DNA of 64,000 nt from Alicyclobacillus acidiphilus NBRC 100859 (GTDB lineage Bacteria > Bacillota > Bacilli > Alicyclobacillales > Alicyclobacillaceae). Shown in pieces: positions 435 to 11,421 of the stretch. A program made the translations under genes and the position numbers. The notes beneath the pieces are model-generated. The model searched no databases. It was not told where the DNA came from and saw only the letters and a program-made list of their open reading frames with translations. The stretch lies in contig NZ_BCQI01000016.1 of NCBI RefSeq assembly GCF_001544355.1, positions 1 through 64,000 of the forward strand, in the 5' to 3' direction. Within the stretch, counting starts at the first letter, position 1; each line of letters opens with the position of its first letter.

Positions 435-2111
435 GTGCAACGGCGATATTCGTGGATGATAGGCGTCGTGATCGCAATCGGCGCCGCGGGCGTGGGCTTG
501 GGAATGGAAAGGTGGGAGCGCGGCGGAGATCGAGTGAAAGCGCAGCCTGCAACAATCGTGCGGCAGGCAGCCAACGCAACTGTTGTCCGCAGTGCTCAGA
601 CTCCAGCGGCCAAGCCAGCCGCGAAACTGCAGTTGTCGGCCGACTGGCCGACCTTTGGAAACAACCTGTGGCAGGACAGGGTGTCCCCCATCTCGTTTTC
701 GGCGACGGGGCAGCAATGGACAAAACGATACGAGATCCCCATCGCGTCCGGTGGGAGCAGCGAAACCTTCCCGCTGGAGCAAAACGGGACGCTGTACGTG
801 ACGACGATGCAGGGGGCCGTGATGGCCATCGATGCGGCCACAGGCAAGCGGCGCTGGACGTATTCGCCGACGCTCCATCTGGATCAGGGAATTCCGACCA
901 TCAACCGTGGAGTCGCGCTCGGCCTTGGCGACGTCTTTGTGCTGACGCCGGATGATAAGCTGGTTGCGCTGTCGCAGAAGACTGGGCAAGTCCGCTACGA
1001 GGTGACGGTGGCGGACGAGGACGAAGGGTATTTTGAGTCGATGGCGCCGCTCTATGCGGATGGCAAGGTGTTCGTCGGCAGCGCAGGTGGAGACGAAGGC
1101 GTGCGCGGCTTTGAAGCGTGCTACAACGCTAGCAGCGGCAAATTACTGTGGAGGACCTTCACGATACCCCAACGCGGCCAGGGGTGGGTGCCGAAGACGG
1201 GCGATCACGGCGGCGGCGCGGTATGGAACTCCCCTGCCTACGACCCGGCCACCAACCAACTGTTTTTTGGAACAGGGAATCCGTCACCGGACTATTTTGG
1301 CGAGCAGCGATCCGGGCCGGATCCCATGACGGACGCGATTGTTTCCGTTCGCGCTGACAGCGGCCGCGTCAACTGGTACCGCCAAGAGGTGGCGCACGAC
1401 TTGTGGGATTACGATGTCGCATCGCCGCCGATGTTGTTTCAGGTAAACGGCCAACTGGCCGTCGGCGAAGCGGGCAAGGACGGACGATGGTATGAATGGT
1501 ATACGAAGACGGGTCGCCCGGTGTTTGGACCCGTCGCGTTTGTGAAGGAGCATCATGTGCCGCCGACGAGCGAGGCGACCCTGGAATGGCCGGGATCGGA
1601 AGGCGGTGCGAACTACGGGCCGAGCGCCTACGATCCGGCTGACGGCGACGTGATCGTCAGCGGCATCAATGGTCCCGAATACGTTCGCGCAGCCCCGACC
1701 ACGCACACCAGCTATCGCGTGGACGACGGAACCGACGCCACCGCCGCGCCTGCGGGAGATTGGACAGGAACACTGACCAGTATCGACACGGCGACCGGGA
1801 ACGTGGTGTGGCAAAAGACATTGGCCACGCCCGCGATCGGCGGCGTCACCGCGTCGATTGGAGGCACCGCGTATTTCGGCGAAGCAAACGGATGGCTTTA
1901 CGGCGTCGACATGGCGACAGGGAAGACCGTCTGGTCGTACAACGCGCATATTCCAGCCGGCAGCGCGCCCATCCTCTATCGCGCGGGCGGGCACACCTTC
2001 CTCACTTTCGCGCTTGGCGAAAGCGCGTCCCTGCAAGGACTGTTCCCGTATGACGGCGATGTGGAGATCGTGACCTTCCAGTTGGCTACTTCGTCACGTC
2101 GAACATCGTGA
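435..2111 (+). CDS. PQQ-dependent dehydrogenase-like beta-propeller protein, exported
   Basis: 558 aa. The N-terminus has Arg residues followed by a hydrophobic segment (about residues 6-22), so the protein is probably exported or membrane-anchored. The body is an eight-bladed quinoprotein alcohol dehydrogenase-type propeller with repeated blade signatures such as ATGKRRW, SSGKLLW and ATGNVVW. It also has the GTGNPSPDY and HDLWDYDVASPP segments of PQQ enzymes, where the Asp residues include the likely catalytic base. These features suggest a periplasm-side alcohol or sugar oxidation role, but the substrate cannot be read. I see no vicinal disulfide Cys pair and no cytochrome c domain, so electrons would need another acceptor. 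GTG at 435 is chosen because AAGAGGTGA lies 4-5 bases upstream; the frame stays open to 363. The 3' end overlaps the convergent multicopper oxidase gene by 26 bp. Confidence 0.8.
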   Translation: MQRRYSWMIGVVIAIGAAGVGLGMERWERGGDRVKAQPATIVRQAANATVVRSAQTPAAKPAAKLQLSADWPTFGNNLWQDRVSPISFSATGQQWTKRYEIPIASGGSSETFPLEQNGTLYVTTMQGAVMAIDAATGKRRWTYSPTLHLDQGIPTINRGVALGLGDVFVLTPDDKLVALSQKTGQVRYEVTVADEDEGYFESMAPLYADGKVFVGSAGGDEGVRGFEACYNASSGKLLWRTFTIPQRGQGWVPKTGDHGGGAVWNSPAYDPATNQLFFGTGNPSPDYFGEQRSGPDPMTDAIVSVRADSGRVNWYRQEVAHDLWDYDVASPPMLFQVNGQLAVGEAGKDGRWYEWYTKTGRPVFGPVAFVKEHHVPPTSEATLEWPGSEGGANYGPSAYDPADGDVIVSGINGPEYVRAAPTTHTSYRVDDGTDATAAPAGDWTGTLTSIDTATGNVVWQKTLATPAIGGVTASIGGTAYFGEANGWLYGVDMATGKTVWSYNAHIPAGSAPILYRAGGHTFLTFALGESASLQGLFPYDGDVEIVTFQLATSSRRTS

Positions 2112-3498
2112 TCATGCCGCTCATCTGCGAGCCGTCCGTGGTGTGATCGGCGATGTGGCAGTGGAACAGCCATTTACCCGGCTGATTCGCGACAAACGAG
2201 AGATCGTAGGTCGATCCCGGCGACGTATCGATGGTGTCCAACGTCAGCGGGTCCTTGATGGGGTACCCGTCCTGGTTGATCACTTGGAAGTGGAACCCGT
2301 GCAAATGCATCGGATGGTCCATCGATCCGATATTGATCAGGTGAACGAGCACCTTGTCCCCGACTTTTGCCGGCATGACGGGCGTCGCTGGATACGACAG
2401 ACCGTTGATGGTGTATCCGAATTGAGGTGAATCGTTCACGATCAAGGTATATTCGTCCTGGTACCCTGGGTGAACTTGCCGCCAGCCTGTCCCTTTTGGC
2501 TCGACGATGAATGGGCCCCACAGCCCCATGTTTTCCTGCTTCAGCATATCGGTCATCGGATGGCTGTGGTACATGTAGGTTCCAGCCGGCGCATTCACGG
2601 TAAACGTGTACGTCCAGGTGTGACCGGGTTTGATGTCGGGCTGGCTGATGCCGCCCGTTCCATCCTGCGCGAACGGCACATCCAAGCCGTGCCAGTGCAC
2701 AGTCGTGCCCTCGGGCAATTTGTTGTCGACGATGATTTTGACCTTGTCGCCTTCATCCACCTTGATCTCCGGCCCCGGCACGCTTCCGTTATATGCCCAC
2801 GCTTCGACCTTTTCACCAGGCTTCACCTGCCACCAAACCGGTTCTGCCGTCAAGTGAAACACCTTGACGCCGTTCACCAGCTTGTACGGCAACAGGCGAA
2901 TATCGTCCTTTCCCTCCGGTTCGCCAGACGTGCCAGTTCCGAGCGGCGCGACCTTGTCGCTCGTCGTCTCGCTGCTGCCCGCAGCCGAATTGGTGTCGCT
3001 GGTGTCGTTTGACCCGGACATGTTCATGCCCATGTTCATGGAGTTGCCCGACGCGGAATTCCCGGATGCGGACGACGCGGACGATCCGGTGGCTGTGACG
3101 ATCACGGTGCCGTTCATGTCCCCATGGTACGCACAAAAATACGGATACGTACCTGCCTTGGTAAACGTGTACGAGAACGATTTACCCGGATCCAGTTCAC
3201 CTGAATCGAATTTCCCATCCGCCGTTCGATCCGCGCCGCTCGTCACCGTGTGCGCCATCGAGTCGTCGTTTTTCCACGTGACAGTCGTACCGACGGTCAC
3301 GTGGATACTGACAGGCTGGAATTGCGAGTCTTGCAGATTTACCGTCGCATGATGGCCTTGAACGACAGGTGAACTCGTCATGTTATTTGTCTTGTTCCCC
3401 GCGCCGTTTGTATCTGTGTTTGGCGACTGACAGCCGGCGAGCCCAAGAAGGCTGACGGCCGCGATCGAGAAAAGCGCACGTCTGAGTCGCTTGTTCAT
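2086..3498 (-). CDS. lipoprotein multicopper oxidase with N-terminal cupredoxin domain
   Basis: 470 aa. The signal peptide ends in the lipobox LAGC (Cys23), so this is a surface lipoprotein. Residues about 48-136 form a plastocyanin-like domain with type 1 copper ligands His83, Cys122, His125 and Met128. A Ser/Asn/Met-rich linker (about 138-185) includes a Met cluster at 154-160. Residues about 205-470 form a two-domain laccase or nitrite-reductase-like oxidase with HWH (268-270), HSH (311-313), HPMHLH (395-400) and HCHIADH (446-452), a full set of type 1, 2 and 3 copper motifs. It likely oxidises Cu(I), phenolics or a redox partner using O2, though nitrite reduction cannot be excluded. The ATG has AAAGAGG upstream. 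The gene converges on the PQQ enzyme and could serve it as a redox partner (inference). Confidence 0.85.
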   Translation of the reverse strand: MNKRLRRALFSIAAVSLLGLAGCQSPNTDTNGAGNKTNNMTSSPVVQGHHATVNLQDSQFQPVSIHVTVGTTVTWKNDDSMAHTVTSGADRTADGKFDSGELDPGKSFSYTFTKAGTYPYFCAYHGDMNGTVIVTATGSSASSASGNSASGNSMNMGMNMSGSNDTSDTNSAAGSSETTSDKVAPLGTGTSGEPEGKDDIRLLPYKLVNGVKVFHLTAEPVWWQVKPGEKVEAWAYNGSVPGPEIKVDEGDKVKIIVDNKLPEGTTVHWHGLDVPFAQDGTGGISQPDIKPGHTWTYTFTVNAPAGTYMYHSHPMTDMLKQENMGLWGPFIVEPKGTGWRQVHPGYQDEYTLIVNDSPQFGYTINGLSYPATPVMPAKVGDKVLVHLINIGSMDHPMHLHGFHFQVINQDGYPIKDPLTLDTIDTSPGSTYDLSFVANQPGKWLFHCHIADHTTDGSQMSGMITMFDVTK

Positions 3499-3597
3499 CG
3501 GCTACGTCCTCTTTCTTCATATGGAATCAGCTCTGCTAGTTTTTCCAAGGTCCAATCATACGGCGTTTGGGTGGGCTTGTCGTCAGCAAAAAGGACC

Positions 3598-3626
3598 ATT
3601 TTGAGGCCGAATCGGCCGATTGACAA
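3598..3626 (-). promoter_or_regulatory. putative promoter of the multicopper oxidase gene with palindromic operator
   Basis: Read on the minus strand, TTGTCA (3621-3626) and CAAAAT (3598-3603) are separated by 17 bp. The spacer overlaps a perfect 12-bp palindrome, AATCGGCCGATT (3610-3621). A symmetric element in the spacer suits a repressor or a metal-sensing regulator. The -10 match is weak, and no regulator gene lies nearby. Confidence 0.4.
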
Positions 3627-3692
3627 AAAACGGTCACAAGGCCGGGGCTGGTGGGAGCGGCGTGGCTGGGTGGCTGACACGGGGGTGACACG

Positions 3693-3887
3693 GGGGTGAA
3701 ATAAGCGGCCGTCAGCCGCTTATTTTGGCGGAATGACCGGATCGAAAGGAAATAGGCGGCCCCGAGCTGCTTATTTGCCTCCGGTGCCCCCGAAACGGCG
3801 CGGTTACAGGCAAATAAGCGGCCGTGGACCGCTTATTCGTCGCGAATGAGACGATTCGACACACATAAGCGGCCTGAGGCGGCTTAT
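3693..3887. repeat. 195-bp direct repeat, copy 1, with four hairpins
   Basis: This copy matches 4008-4202 at a constant offset of 315 bp, with only scattered substitutions and no indel. It holds four inverted repeats sharing the core ATAAGCGG/CCGCTTAT. They are 3699-3725 (11-bp perfect stem), 3750-3776 (imperfect), 3812-3838 and 3862-3890. Hairpin centres are about 51, 62 and 51 bp apart. Both neighbouring genes are on the minus strand, so the repeats lie after asnB and before the multicopper oxidase promoter. No convincing protein is encoded here. Confidence 0.85.
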
Positions 3888-4007
3888 GTGCGTGCCATTG
3901 GAGATGAGGCCAGTTGCTGGGCATAAGGGTCAAGCATGGGGAAGCGCGATCGCGATGGCCGGCGAAGGGCGAAGGCGATCGCAAGGGGCCGGGGCTGGCG
4001 AGCGGCC

Positions 4008-4202
4008 GGGGTGAAATAAGCGGCCGTCAGCCGCTTATTTTGGCGGAATGACCGGATCGAAAGGAAATAGGCGGCCCCGAGCTGCTTATTTGCCTCCGGT
4101 GCCCCCGAAACGGCCCGGCCACGGGTAAATAAGCGGTCGTGGACCGCTTATTCGTCGCGAATGAGACGATTCGACACACATAAGCGGCCTGAGGCGGCTT
4201 AT
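4008..4202. repeat. 195-bp direct repeat, copy 2, with four hairpins
   Basis: Second copy of the element at 3693-3887. Its hairpins are at about 4014-4040, 4065-4091, 4127-4153 and 4177-4203. Most differences from copy 1 fall between hairpins 2 and 3. Similarity seems to extend leftwards, since GGCCGGGGCTGG occurs before both copies (about 3641 and 3988), so the duplicated unit may be larger than 195 bp. The sequence between the copies (3888-4007) holds no recognisable gene. Confidence 0.85.
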
Positions 4203-4203
4203 T

Positions 4204-4318
4204 CGCGCCCCGCCCGCGGCCCTGCCCGCGCCCCGCCCTCGCCCCGCCCTCGCCCCTCGCCCCGCGCCGCTCCCCGCCGCCCACCTGGCTGCCGGCTCGG
4301 TCGCGCCCCCCCCTCGCC
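4204..4318. repeat. C-rich low-complexity tract with short imperfect tandem units
   Basis: About 115 bp, mostly C with G and almost no A, built of recurring CGCCCCGCCCT-type units. It sits directly after the asnB stop codon. On the asnB-sense strand it is strongly G-rich with many GGG/GGGG runs, so a G-quadruplex or strong RNA structure could form in the asnB 3' untranslated region. No gene is visible. Confidence 0.7.
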
Positions 4319-4319
4319 T

Positions 4320-6167
4320 TTACTTCACTCGAACGCTGTACTGTTTCATCCACTCATTCGTTTCGTAAAGGTAGTGGAACATTTGGGCCGTGCCCATAAT
4401 CTGTCCGAACCATGGGCGGTGTTCCGTGGGACTGTAACTCATCTGCGCGAGTGCGCGGACAGACGACGGATCGATGAAAGGCAGAATCGGCGACGACGGA
4501 TCGTTGACCACGGCCAGGGCCTTCTCGCGCACGAGTGCCAAGTACGCGGGATTGGGCGTCGATGGGTATGGACTCTTCTTGCGGTACAACGCGTCGTCAG
4601 GCAGATAGCCTTCCATCGCTTTTCGGAGAATGCCCTTCACTTCGTTCCCGACGGTTTTCATCGACCAAGGGATGTTGAATACATATTCGACGAGGCGGTG
4701 ATCGCAAAATGGAACCCGCACTTCCAGGCCGGAGCCCATGCTCATTCTGTCTTTCCGATCCAGCAATGTCGGCATAAACCTGGTGATGGACAAATAACCG
4801 ATTTCGCGCACGCGCGCGTCGCGGGCATTTTCCCCGGGGAGTTTCGGAACCTCCGAGAGGGCTTGCAGATACCGTTCACGAACGTATTCATGCGGTTTGA
4901 TCCGCTGTTTCAACTCATCCGACATGATGCCCATCCGCTCATGCAACCTGAGCGACCACGGGAATGTGTCGGCTTTGAGCGCGTCTTCGCGGTGAAACCA
5001 AGGATATCCGCCGAAAACCTCGTCTGCCGCTTCGCCGGACAGCGCCACGGTCACATCTTCCTTCACGCGCTTGCAGAACAAAAAGAGCGATGTGTCGATG
5101 TCGGCCATGCCGGGTAAATCTCTGGTGTGGAGCGGATGGAGCAGGTGTTCAGCCAAATCGGGTGTGTCGAAGATCACGCGATGGTGCACGCTGCCAATGA
5201 ACTTCGAGATTTTCTCAGCCCATGGCCCATCCAAGCTCTTCTGAAACGCGTTCGCCGTGAAATGCTTTTCCATGTCCTTGAACTCAATGGCGTACGTGTG
5301 CAAAGCGTCGCGGCCGGTCCGTTTGAAGTAACGGGCGGCGATCGCGGATACGACGCTCGAGTCCAAGCCTCCGGACAGGAATGTCGCGATGGGAACATCG
5401 GAAATCAATTGCCGCTCCACGATGTCAACCATCAATTCGCGGACGCGCTCCACCGTGGTGTCGAGCGAATCTTCGTGCTCGTAGCTCTGCAGCTTCCAGT
5501 ACGATTGCATCTTCATGCCATCCGGCGAACCAATCAGGATATGGCCGGGCAGCAACTCTTCAACCTGCTCGAACACGCCATGGCCTGGAGTCCTGGCGGG
5601 ACCCATCGAGAAAATCTCGGCCAAGCCCTCTTCCGTGATCACGGGTTCGATGGCCGGGTGCCTCAGCAGGGCTTTGATTTCGGATCCGAAGATGATGCCT
5701 TGCCCCACGCGGCTGATGAACAAAGGTTTGACGCCGAGTCGATCACGCCCCATGAACAAACGCTGATTCGCATCGTCCCATATCGCGAAGGCGAAGATGC
5801 CGTTCAATTTTTCGACACACTGGGGCCCCCACGCCACATAGGAGACAAGCAGCACTTCCGTGTCCGAATAGCCCTCGAAGTGGTAGCCAAGCGACACGAG
5901 TTCCCGGCGAATGTCTTCGGTGTTGTACAGCTCGCCGTTATATACGATGGTGTACGCCCGTTCGCCAAATGTCCGGGTCATCGGTTGAAGCCCGCCGTCG
6001 GGATCGACCACAATCAATCGACGATGTGCGAATACCGCATGACTCGTCACCCACAGCCCTTCAGCATCAGGCCCGCGCGAGCACAGCGCATCTCCCATGG
6101 ATTGCACGATTGGGGTTTCATAACTGAGGTCGCGGGTCCAATCAACCCACCCTGTAATTCCGCACAT
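4320..6167 (-). CDS. asnB: asparagine synthetase (glutamine-hydrolysing)
   Basis: 615 aa. It makes asparagine from aspartate, ATP and glutamine in the cytoplasm. The protein starts MCGITGWVD, so Cys2 is the class II glutaminase nucleophile after Met removal, and RGPDAEG and YNGELYN continue the glutaminase domain (about 1-210). The synthetase domain carries the PP-loop SGGLDSS (about 270), and GEAADEVFGGYPW near 360 is typical. ATG at 6167 is chosen because AGGAGG lies 8 bases upstream and Cys must be residue 2; the longer frame to 6308 is not needed. The length resembles the B. subtilis AsnO (YisO) type more than short forms. The C-rich tract and hairpin repeats follow it. Confidence 0.93.
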   Translation of the reverse strand: MCGITGWVDWTRDLSYETPIVQSMGDALCSRGPDAEGLWVTSHAVFAHRRLIVVDPDGGLQPMTRTFGERAYTIVYNGELYNTEDIRRELVSLGYHFEGYSDTEVLLVSYVAWGPQCVEKLNGIFAFAIWDDANQRLFMGRDRLGVKPLFISRVGQGIIFGSEIKALLRHPAIEPVITEEGLAEIFSMGPARTPGHGVFEQVEELLPGHILIGSPDGMKMQSYWKLQSYEHEDSLDTTVERVRELMVDIVERQLISDVPIATFLSGGLDSSVVSAIAARYFKRTGRDALHTYAIEFKDMEKHFTANAFQKSLDGPWAEKISKFIGSVHHRVIFDTPDLAEHLLHPLHTRDLPGMADIDTSLFLFCKRVKEDVTVALSGEAADEVFGGYPWFHREDALKADTFPWSLRLHERMGIMSDELKQRIKPHEYVRERYLQALSEVPKLPGENARDARVREIGYLSITRFMPTLLDRKDRMSMGSGLEVRVPFCDHRLVEYVFNIPWSMKTVGNEVKGILRKAMEGYLPDDALYRKKSPYPSTPNPAYLALVREKALAVVNDPSSPILPFIDPSSVRALAQMSYSPTEHRPWFGQIMGTAQMFHYLYETNEWMKQYSVRVK

Positions 6168-6329
6168 GCGCTCTTCCTCCTCAAACGTGAATTCCGCCTT
6201 ACGAACGCAGGCGCTGACAAAATCTCCACAGCTTATGACAGAGATGGGCGTTTGGTGCCCATCGACTCGGCGGATTTGGCTGCGAGTGTTCCGTCGGGGT
6301 TCGTGCAAGGGGCCGGGCCAGGGCTTGCG

Positions 6330-7994: not shown

Positions 7995-8084
7995 GGAGAG
8001 ATGTCTGAGTGGTCGAAAGAGCTCGTCTCGAAAGCGAGTAGCTCCGCAAGGGGCTCGTGGGTTCGAATCCCACTCTCTCCGCCA
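7995..8084 (+). tRNA. tRNA-Ser (anticodon CGA)
   Basis: 90 nt class II tRNA. Acceptor GGAGAGA pairs with TCTCTCC and CCA is encoded (8082-8084). The anticodon loop CTCGAAA gives anticodon CGA (reads UCG). A long variable arm (GCTCCGCAAGGGGC) and the T-arm GGGTTCGAATCCC are present. Confidence 0.95.
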
Positions 8085-8149: not shown

Positions 8150-8297
8150 CGCGGTTTCTGACCAAGACCTGACTGGGTCCCATGCGGCGAAAACTCCTGA
8201 ATCGTGTCAGGTCCTGACGGAAGCAGCACTAAGGGAGACCTTTCGGGCGACGTGGGCGTGCCTAGTCGGGGCTTGGTCAGAGATCGCGATTTTTGCG
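8150..8297 (+). ncRNA. ffs: signal recognition particle RNA (ffs/scr)
   Basis: The conserved apical SRP motif (GTCAGGTCCTGACGGAAGCAGC, in two parts: GTCAGGTCCTG at 8206-8216 and GGAAGCAGCACTAAG just after) is exact for the Ffh-binding domain. The strand before it folds back on the strand after it. CTGACCAAG (about 8158-8166) pairs with CTTGGTCAG (8272-8280), and CGCG pairs with CGCG further out. ATTTTTG follows, so the base stem can act as terminator. This gives a short rod of about 145 nt. Ends are estimated. Location between tadA/tRNA and dnaX matches scr of B. subtilis. No clear sigma-A promoter is visible directly upstream. Confidence 0.85.
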
Positions 8298-9684: not shown

Positions 9685-11421
9685 GTGGCCTACCAAGCAT
9701 TGTATCGGACCTGGAGACCACAGTCGTTTGCCGATTTTATTGGGCAACCACATGTCCGGCAGACGTTGATGAACGCCATAGCCAGCGGGCAGGTTGCCCA
9801 CGCCTACTTGTTCTGCGGCCCCCGTGGGACGGGCAAGACGAGCGCGGCAAAGCTGTTCGCGAAGGCTATCAACTGCACGGCGCGCAATGGCTCGGAGCCT
9901 TGCAACGAGTGCGATGCGTGTGTTTCGATCACGCGCGGGAACAATGTCGACGTCGAGGAAATCGATGCGGCTTCGAATCGCGGTGTCGACGAGATCCGGG
10001 AATTGCGCGATAAAGTCCATTACTTACCGACGACGGTCAGCAAGAAAGTTTACATTGTTGACGAGGTACACATGTTGACGACGGAGGCGTTCAACGCCCT
10101 GCTGAAGACGTTGGAGGAACCTCCCGCGCATGTCGTGTTCCTGCTTGCGACGACGGAGGCCCATCGCCTCCCCAGCACCATTGTATCGCGCTGCCAGCGC
10201 TTCGATTTCCACCGGATTGCCACGGAGACGATTGTGGAGCGGCTGTCGGAAGTCGTTCAACATCAGCAGTGGACGGCGGAAGCCACGGCGCTTTGGAAGC
10301 TTGCGGAGGCGGCCGACGGCGGCTTGCGCGATGCGCTGGGGCTGCTTGAACAAGCGGCCGCGTTCGGCCAAGGATCCATCTCGGAAGAAGAAGTCGCTTC
10401 GGTGATTGGCGGCGTCGATACGCGTGCTTTGCTGAGTCTGGTCGCGGATTTGGCCGCCGCCGAGCATTTGAAGGCGTTGGATCGCCTGGCGTCGTGGTAC
10501 GCCAACGGCAAGGACCCGACGCGGATCGCAAACGACCTGTTGCAAGTGTTTCGAGATTTGTTTATTGTCATGCTAGCCCGTGGGGACGACGCCTTGGCCG
10601 GCAAGCCGGTGGAGCCTTATCGGGCGATCATCGACGACACGAAGGTATCGACTGAATGGATTCTGACCGCGTTGACCAAACTTGGTGAACTATACACGCA
10701 AATGCGTTATGTCGAGCAGCCCCGACTGGCGTTGGAAACCTGTTTGCTGACCGTCTCAGCCTTGCCGCGAGGTGGCAAGGCTGAGGCTGTGCCGATCGCG
10801 ACGGCAGAGCCAGCGCAGCGGGGGGCGGCACCGACCGCCGTTGCACCGACCGCGGTCAGACCAAGTGCCGCTCCGACGGCATCGGCTGCCGCGGTGCCGA
10901 TCACCCCGCTGAACCAGCCGGTTGCGGAGCCGGGATCGACGCGCGCGCCCAGTCAGGCTGCCACCAGGCGGCGCCCTGGGGCGACTGGCGATCGCAAGCG
11001 GGAGACGCTGGAGCGCCTGTTTGCCGAACGCAATCCAGAGCTCGAAGACATGGTGAAGTTGCGCTGGCCGGATGTGCTGGACAAGGTGAAATCGGACAGA
11101 ATCCAGACGCACGCGTGGCTGACCCACGGTGACGTGGCGCTGGTCACAGACTACGCCGTCGTGTTGTCGTTTGGGAGCAAGATTCACCGCGAGGCGGTGA
11201 TGAAAGCGACGGATCGACAGACCATCGAAGCGGCTTTTCAGGTCATTTTGGAGCGGGATTTTCAATTATTCGCTTTGTTGAAATCGGATTGGGACGACTA
11301 TCTTGCCGAGCGCGAGGCGAGTCAGCGGCAAGCGGAATCTGAACAGCCGCAGAGGGATATCGTTGCTGCCGCAGTCGAATTATTCGGCGCGGATAAAGTC
11401 ATTTTGGAAGACGAGGGATGA
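9685..11421 (+). CDS. dnaX: DNA polymerase III subunits gamma and tau
   Basis: 578 aa clamp-loader ATPase. Walker A is GPRGTGKT (residues 45-52). A zinc module uses Cys64, Cys73, Cys76 and Cys79. DEVHML is the Walker B region and STIVSRCQRFDF the SRC sensor. After about residue 365 an Ala/Pro/Thr-rich linker leads into the C-terminal tau region (about 430-565). I see no slippery A-run for gamma frameshifting. GTG 9685 follows GAGGGGGG. The gene starts a tight cluster with yaaK and recR. Confidence 0.95.
   Translation: MAYQALYRTWRPQSFADFIGQPHVRQTLMNAIASGQVAHAYLFCGPRGTGKTSAAKLFAKAINCTARNGSEPCNECDACVSITRGNNVDVEEIDAASNRGVDEIRELRDKVHYLPTTVSKKVYIVDEVHMLTTEAFNALLKTLEEPPAHVVFLLATTEAHRLPSTIVSRCQRFDFHRIATETIVERLSEVVQHQQWTAEATALWKLAEAADGGLRDALGLLEQAAAFGQGSISEEEVASVIGGVDTRALLSLVADLAAAEHLKALDRLASWYANGKDPTRIANDLLQVFRDLFIVMLARGDDALAGKPVEPYRAIIDDTKVSTEWILTALTKLGELYTQMRYVEQPRLALETCLLTVSALPRGGKAEAVPIATAEPAQRGAAPTAVAPTAVRPSAAPTASAAAVPITPLNQPVAEPGSTRAPSQAATRRRPGATGDRKRETLERLFAERNPELEDMVKLRWPDVLDKVKSDRIQTHAWLTHGDVALVTDYAVVLSFGSKIHREAVMKATDRQTIEAAFQVILERDFQLFALLKSDWDDYLAEREASQRQAESEQPQRDIVAAAVELFGADKVILEDEG

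Follow-up and report, generated by a model that had tools for sequence, protein, structure and literature searches.

We found that the two near-identical repeats beside asnB belong to a family of intergenic DNA elements, each about 195 bp long, that are dispersed over the genome; the family is lineage-specific and has multiplied in this lineage. Interspersed palindromes are already known from bacteria; no family edged by independent minisatellites of opposite strand skew is described in the literature covered.

In the window, i.e. the whole stretch of 64,000 nucleotides that was analysed, the pair lies in a gap of about 820 bases between asnB (4320-6308, minus strand) and a cupredoxin/multicopper-oxidase gene (2086-3498, minus strand). 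As the preliminary description of this DNA had it, the copies are 315 bp apart from start to start and nearly identical (96% over a unit of 195-200 bp); they span 3693-3892 and 4008-4207, and the profile sets the edges at 3696-3890 and 4011-4206. Each copy holds four palindromes, located at 3701-3723, 3752-3774, 3814-3836 and 3865-3887 in copy 1 and 315 positions further on in copy 2, so that the dyads are 51, 62 and 51 bp apart in both, which confirms the spacing given earlier and is the same in the family consensus. The features of the region are:

3675-3699, no strand assigned: left minisatellite, unit TGACACGGGGG repeated 2.3 times, running into copy 1 (tandem repeat search)
3696-3890, plus strand: copy 1 of the four-palindrome element, its orientation set by GATTCGACACA on the plus strand (profile, alignment)
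about 3700-3724, no strand assigned: copy 1, palindrome P1 (sequence)
about 3750-3776, no strand assigned: copy 1, palindrome P2, ATAGGCGG / CTGCTTAT, imperfect (sequence)
about 3812-3837, no strand assigned: copy 1, palindrome P3 (sequence)
3853-3863, plus strand: copy 1, conserved asymmetric spacer motif GATTCGACACA (alignment, motif search)
3865-3887, no strand assigned: copy 1, palindrome P4 (sequence)
3891-4010, no strand assigned: linker that separates the copies; GCGATCGC octamers at 3946 and 3975 (profile edges)
4011-4206, plus strand: copy 2, 96% identical to copy 1 (profile)
about 4015-4039, no strand assigned: copy 2, palindrome P1 (sequence)
about 4065-4091, no strand assigned: copy 2, palindrome P2 (sequence)
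about 4127-4152, no strand assigned: copy 2, palindrome P3 (sequence)
4168-4178, plus strand: copy 2, spacer motif GATTCGACACA (motif search)
4180-4202, no strand assigned: copy 2, palindrome P4 (sequence)
4204-4282, no strand assigned: right C-rich minisatellite of period 11-12, CGCGCCCCGCC-type, abutting copy 2 (tandem repeat search)

The preliminary description did not mention the tandem repeats lying directly at the two outer ends of the pair. Its eight hairpins with the same ends stood as palindromes but not in the uniformity of their ends, since exact ATAAGCGG is found in just 10 of the 16 palindrome arms of the pair, P2 reading ATAGGCGG/CTGCTTAT. These 10 occurrences are all that the window contains (1.14 expected; maximum of 5 in 100 shuffles), and the remark that the motif is not prominent elsewhere is therefore correct within the window, but not genome-wide, where 55 exact palindromes face none in a reversed control. 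The duplicated part is the element itself: the sequence preceding copy 1 and the linker preceding copy 2 have just a 12-base and a 7-base stretch in common by blastn.

Is the pair an isolated feature of this locus? The whole-genome search that had been suggested as a check was run on the source genome (3.86 Mb in 165 contigs, 99.96% complete) and returned many intergenic copies. The 55 palindromes above are exact matches to ATAAGCGGN{2,12}CCGCTTAT; the spacer motif GATTCGACACA occurs 75 times, again with a reversed control of 0, and blastn of copy 1 against its own genome gave at least 66 matches (40 of 130 candidates scored). A profile search detected 62 copies of at least 150 positions at 49 loci, 36 of them single and 13 with same-orientation pairs, and no element in five 12-kb control stretches. 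Stretches around the extra GATTCGACACA places outside known elements contained a profile match in 19 of 23 cases, and 26 additional copies of at least 150 positions, none overlapping the 62, came from later stretches. The total is thus at least 88 copies, intergenic wherever inspected, as expected of the interspersed intergenic repeat that had been proposed. At least 20 contig ends have a full or partial element within 500 bp, suggesting that the assembly tends to break at longer arrays. The terminal copies of contigs C1 and C102 share 95% identity, as would be expected of a single array that was split in assembly.

None of the 62 copies checked overlaps a well-scored predicted gene (simple codon-usage caller), and three weak gene calls touch an element edge (C20:5383, C39:404 and C62:8102). 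The neighbouring genes are co-directional at 21 of the 49 loci, convergent at 10 and divergent at 10, and one side lacks a called gene at 8; relative to co-directional genes, the element points in the same direction 10 times and in the opposite direction 11 times. Orientation is random relative to genes, which argues against a transcript-bound role. A Pfam scan of 40 of the 86 flanking proteins placed 39 in ordinary chromosomal families (RecA, ClpP, CodY and AsnB among them) and left one without a family; transposase, integrase and resolvase families did not occur among these 40.

The distribution of the family is narrow. With copy 1 as query against 101 genomes, blastn matched its own genome alone and none of the 100 relatives. 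The exact palindrome, a search that other half-site forms would escape, is present in 5 of 41 genomes of the bacterial family: 55 times in the source, 12 times in G033, and once each in G004, G007 and G031. Stretches around these three lone palindromes, and around single matches in G001 and G043, had no profile match. In G007 and G004, two genus relatives, the lone ATAAGCGG hairpin sits within TTGCGGAATAAGCGG...CCGCTTATTTCGCAA in similar surroundings, with the four-palindrome profile unmatched. G033, which belongs to another genus, carries a diverged form of the element, whose similar palindromes recur in tandem every 280-320 bp or so, mostly at 2.69-2.86 Mb. The preliminary description had reckoned with relatives that carry the motif at this locus alone; in 14 genus relatives, the stretch around asnB contains no element by profile search. 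In G001, one of the 14, asnB is followed, after an element-free spacer of about 300 bases, by a homologue (65% over 422 residues) of the cupredoxin/multicopper-oxidase gene of the window. Phage and plasmid collections gave no blastn match and viral contigs no exact motif match, and a phage or plasmid origin was accordingly rejected. One exact match to GATTCGACACANNTAAGCGGC turned up in the genome_contigs collection, from which the own or very near species may be omitted; it lies in an Aliivibrio MAG at 3204-3224 and is probably a chance match.

What has been conserved in these copies? For the alignment we used 56 of the 62 copies (score above 115, nearly the whole model), leaving out six. Median identity is 0.733 between loci (27% difference) and 0.963 within a locus (about 4% difference). 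The 11 same-locus pairs in the alignment comprise nine at 92-99% identity and two at 0.705 and 0.721; the single duplication event inferred earlier is reasonable for the window pair. Despite the divergence between loci, 37 columns are invariant across all 56 copies. Each element contains the half-site TAAGCGGC eight times, at a centre-to-centre distance of 13 bp, together with a single asymmetric site, ATTCGACA, that is also conserved; the dyad spacings of 51, 62 and 51 bp correspond to about 5, 6 and 5 helical turns. The consensus of the 448 half-sites is (A/T)TA(A/G)GCG(G/T)C, in which positions 2, 3, 5 and 6 are conserved to 99.8, 99.3, 98.2 and 96.4%, and the spacers between palindromes show a mean conservation of 74-83%. 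The spacing is rigid (26 indel cells versus 1912 substitutions). The consensus is partly its own reverse complement, with 126 of 200 bases over the whole element, and has GGCAAATA/TATTTGCC-like ends.

The palindrome arms, in turn, vary nearly independently of each other, with 1960 Watson-Crick cells observed versus 1934 expected (51 versus 49 at two positions, and 1909 versus 1885 outside these). Paired cells amount to 87.8% versus 87.1% in shuffles, a level reached in 1 of 500, and doubly changed cells to 34 versus 22.4 (0 of 500), both being excesses that kinship of the rows alone can produce. In P3, 73% of cells are paired. At one position of P1 and of P2, G.T pairs fill 59 of 112 cells versus 2 for A.C, while the other positions hold 77 A.C and 45 G.T, 31 of the 77 A.C being at one poorly paired position of P3. 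Independent arms, together with a conserved half-site TAAGCGGC, motif ATTCGACA and spacing, speak more for double-stranded protein sites than for an RNA hairpin, and we read selection as acting on half-sites and phasing in duplex DNA.

The flanks of the elements are unusual as well. Tandem arrays (Tandem Repeats Finder, score 40 or more) cover 39.5% of the bases in the first 100 bp from an element; the figure falls to 5.9% at 100-200 bp, to 1.4-2.8% at 200-500 bp and to 0-0.9% in the bins further out. The remainder of the window has 0.35% and a 60 kb control 0.56%. The array units are specific to each locus, with periods of 6-27, and where a flank has an array, it begins at -3 to +12 bp relative to the end of the palindrome in 23 of 31 cases on the left and 27 of 38 on the right. 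Of 47 loci per side (two of the 49 were dropped each time for a short flank), 44 have a G-rich left flank and 45 a C-rich right flank; at 500-800 bp out, the corresponding counts are 16/45 and 20/46, so that no such bias exists there. The pattern was replicated at 16 further loci, taken from the later stretches with a near-complete match and away from contig edges: 15 of 16 left flanks are G-rich, 14 of 16 right flanks C-rich, and coverage within 100 bp is 31%. At the 43 loci with enough flank, arrays occur on both sides at 22, on one side at 18 and on neither at 3; at score 30, an array is missing from 14 left and 8 right flanks, out of 46 on each side. The longer array is on the element's right side at 27 loci and on its left at 13. 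In G033, arrays lie beside several elements with mixed flank skew.

Further repeats were observed around the elements. Up to 300 bp from elements (65 loci), the octamer GCGATCGC reaches 0.94 per kb, about 8 times the 0.117 per kb of the 60 kb control; it is found on the left at 21 loci and on the right at 9. A second, hairpin-like repeat, TAAGGGACAAAAGTTCC(G/C)TTA followed by GGCGGCGCGATCGCG, is located 60-140 bp to the left of several elements (C20:5383, C20:35100, C33:16787, C55:2406, L093, L094 and L095, with a 63-bp-spaced array in L095); its GGACAAAAGTTCCNTTNNGG has 7 exact matches genome-wide and none in 40 relatives. The G033 stretches are rich in minisatellites of periods 5-54, elsewhere than at elements too.

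Our best reading, which we hold tentatively, is that each element is one of a dispersed set of arrays binding a putative dimeric protein, which disturb replication or repair and thereby seed the flanking minisatellites. A sequence-specific dimeric protein would bind the duplex, with several dimers per element, whichever way the element faces relative to genes; replication or repair would be impeded by the occupied array or by a break made at it; slippage or repair synthesis at the edges could then give rise to locus-specific, oppositely skewed minisatellites that abut the element, and the same process on a larger scale might yield tandem copies of the element. As the G-rich strand of each flank is directed 5' to 3' towards the element, an inner break would leave two G-rich 3'-ending strands. 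For a one-way fork barrier, longer arrays would be expected on the approach side; at the 21 co-directional loci, the longer array is on the presumed approach side in 14, on the exit side in 6 and tied in 1, which, with gene direction as a proxy, gives the fork-stall step a weak lean. The conserved half-sites and fixed spacing are those of a protein-site array, and among the options of the preliminary description, binding sites for a dimeric protein fit best, although no candidate binding protein was found. Several further observations sit uneasily with the protein-bound array: the greater length of right-side arrays is not predicted by the model, arrays are confined to one side at 18 of 43 loci and missing from both at 3, and in G033 flank skew is mixed and minisatellites also occur away from its elements. 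The pairing and the doubly changed cells that exceed shuffles would be compatible with single-strand folding, and the G.T excess in P1 and P2 would suit a folded plus strand.

The main rival remains a non-autonomous mobile repeat, MITE- or REP-like, in which the palindromes would be transposase recognition sites and conservation would reflect transposition competence rather than use by the host; we regard this as possible, though unlikely. It would account for the high copy number in one genome, for the 100 relatives unmatched by blastn next to the diverged form of G033, and for the element-free surroundings of asnB in the 14 genus relatives, including G001 with its preserved gene neighbours. 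The interspersed part of the earlier REP/MITE-like proposal stood, as the family does comprise many dispersed intergenic palindromes in the manner of REP/REPIN. The REP/RAYT part did not: Y1_Tnp (PF01797), the transposase family searched genome-wide, has zero matches in the source genome while it was matched in 5 of 14 control genomes, and within 8 bases outside the stems of the 56 copies no tag is constant (GTAG in 1 case; CGTC in 19 of 56 on the 3' side of P3 and otherwise in at most 6), and REP/RAYT was rejected on these grounds. Nor were the target duplications that had been envisaged found next to copies: direct repeats of at least 5 bases within 12 bp of the ends occur at 0 of 46 loci (shuffled mean 1.8), where array growth could, however, have displaced duplications, and inverted complementarity between flanks does not exceed shuffles near the edges. 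Shared 9-mers within 150 bp of the ends, which 12 of 46 loci have against a mean of 6.5 and a maximum of 13 in shuffles, leave room for such displaced duplications. Against mobility also stand the 40 scanned flanking proteins free of transposase, integrase and resolvase families, the 37 invariant columns at 73% identity between loci, and the unmatched phage, plasmid and viral collections.

An improbable alternative is a structured RNA, or processing or terminator hairpins that would act in 3' or 5' gene regions. Both strands of the window copy give stable folds (z -6.2 and -5.7), and the plus-strand G.T excess in P1 and P2 and the covariation above shuffles could be taken in its favour. The nearly independent arms, the weakly paired P3, whose region in the window alone barely beats shuffles (z -1.14), and the random orientation and gene context argue against it; neither folding nor pair counts speak for an RNA as the object of conservation. 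Intrinsic terminators (GC stem followed by a T-run) number 0 at 3400-4400 versus 1.4 in shuffles, and a terminator role was rejected on this count. At gathering score, Rfam has no match at 3693-4206; its only matches in the window are a tRNA gene (7995-8081) followed by the small SRP RNA gene (8171-8270), upstream of an ORF at 9685-11421 (dnaX, by eye). The suggestion of RNA processing or stability hairpins of asnB is consequently not supported, the arms hardly covarying, the orientation being random, and both terminator and Rfam family being absent. Very improbable, finally, is a bidirectional Chi cluster, which would switch AddAB to recombination from whichever side it came, the arrays then being built by repair synthesis at these hotspots. 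Chi of B. subtilis is 5'-AGCGG (PMC4824097). This sequence, which may not be the Chi of the present species, is contained in 228 of 448 half-sites, and the symmetric orientation of sites would fit the symmetric flanks; the best conserved bases, however, are TA.GC rather than AGCGG, which is missing from P1L and P2L in most copies (present in 20/56 and 13/56). Chi is not known to require a palindrome or phasing.

Returning to the protein-bound array, a wider interpretation, which we consider quite doubtful, is that the family represents a new class among the elements of bacterial chromosomes. At dispersed places, phased palindromic protein sites would make up a two-sided barrier or break site, which would grow its own minisatellites outward from its edges with fixed strand polarity and duplicate itself in tandem in the same way. 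The fixed polarity, in which the G-rich strand of either flank has its 3' end on the side of the element, resembles that of telomeric ends. A family with copies edged by independent, oppositely skewed arrays would tie a defined DNA site to the birth of tandem repeats, the cause of which is usually invisible, and the dozens of natural replicates in one genome make the roles of the site, its polarity and the direction of replication directly testable.

The nearest known kinds are REP/BIME/REPIN sequences, the SNRs of Deinococcus, bcr repeats, STAR elements and MITEs. The bcr1-type repeats of the Bacillus cereus group, likewise Bacillota, are interspersed, roughly of the element's size and form stem-loops; they are set apart by their description as one structured unit. 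In the literature covered, with most subscription journals outside its scope, and in the accessible parts of sources including PMC2267715, PMC1978522 and PMC3733652, no element with minisatellites at both outer edges is described. The SNRs of Deinococcus radiodurans, 295 dispersed noncoding repeats of unsettled function that are missing from a sister species, are similar in these respects; they are described as mosaic, of at least 9 types, and edge-anchored minisatellites go unmentioned in the accessible text of the source (PMC1978522). STAR elements of S. aureus are also interspersed intergenic repeats of a Bacillota species, set apart by being described, in the part of the source available, as direct repeats (PMC3532100). 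The Porphyromonas gingivalis MITE is a small repeat element associated with a minisatellite, which according to the accessible part of PMC4596501 is internal, whereas here differing arrays abut the outer edges. REP/BIME/REPIN sequences, palindromic repeats with GTAG and CGTC super-families, are alike in being numerous intergenic palindromes, often closely grouped and species-restricted, as far as the available text of PMC3733652 describes them; the present family differs from them in its fixed 195-bp unit of four phased palindromes, the lack of a Y1 transposase gene, its random gene context and the minisatellites at its edges.
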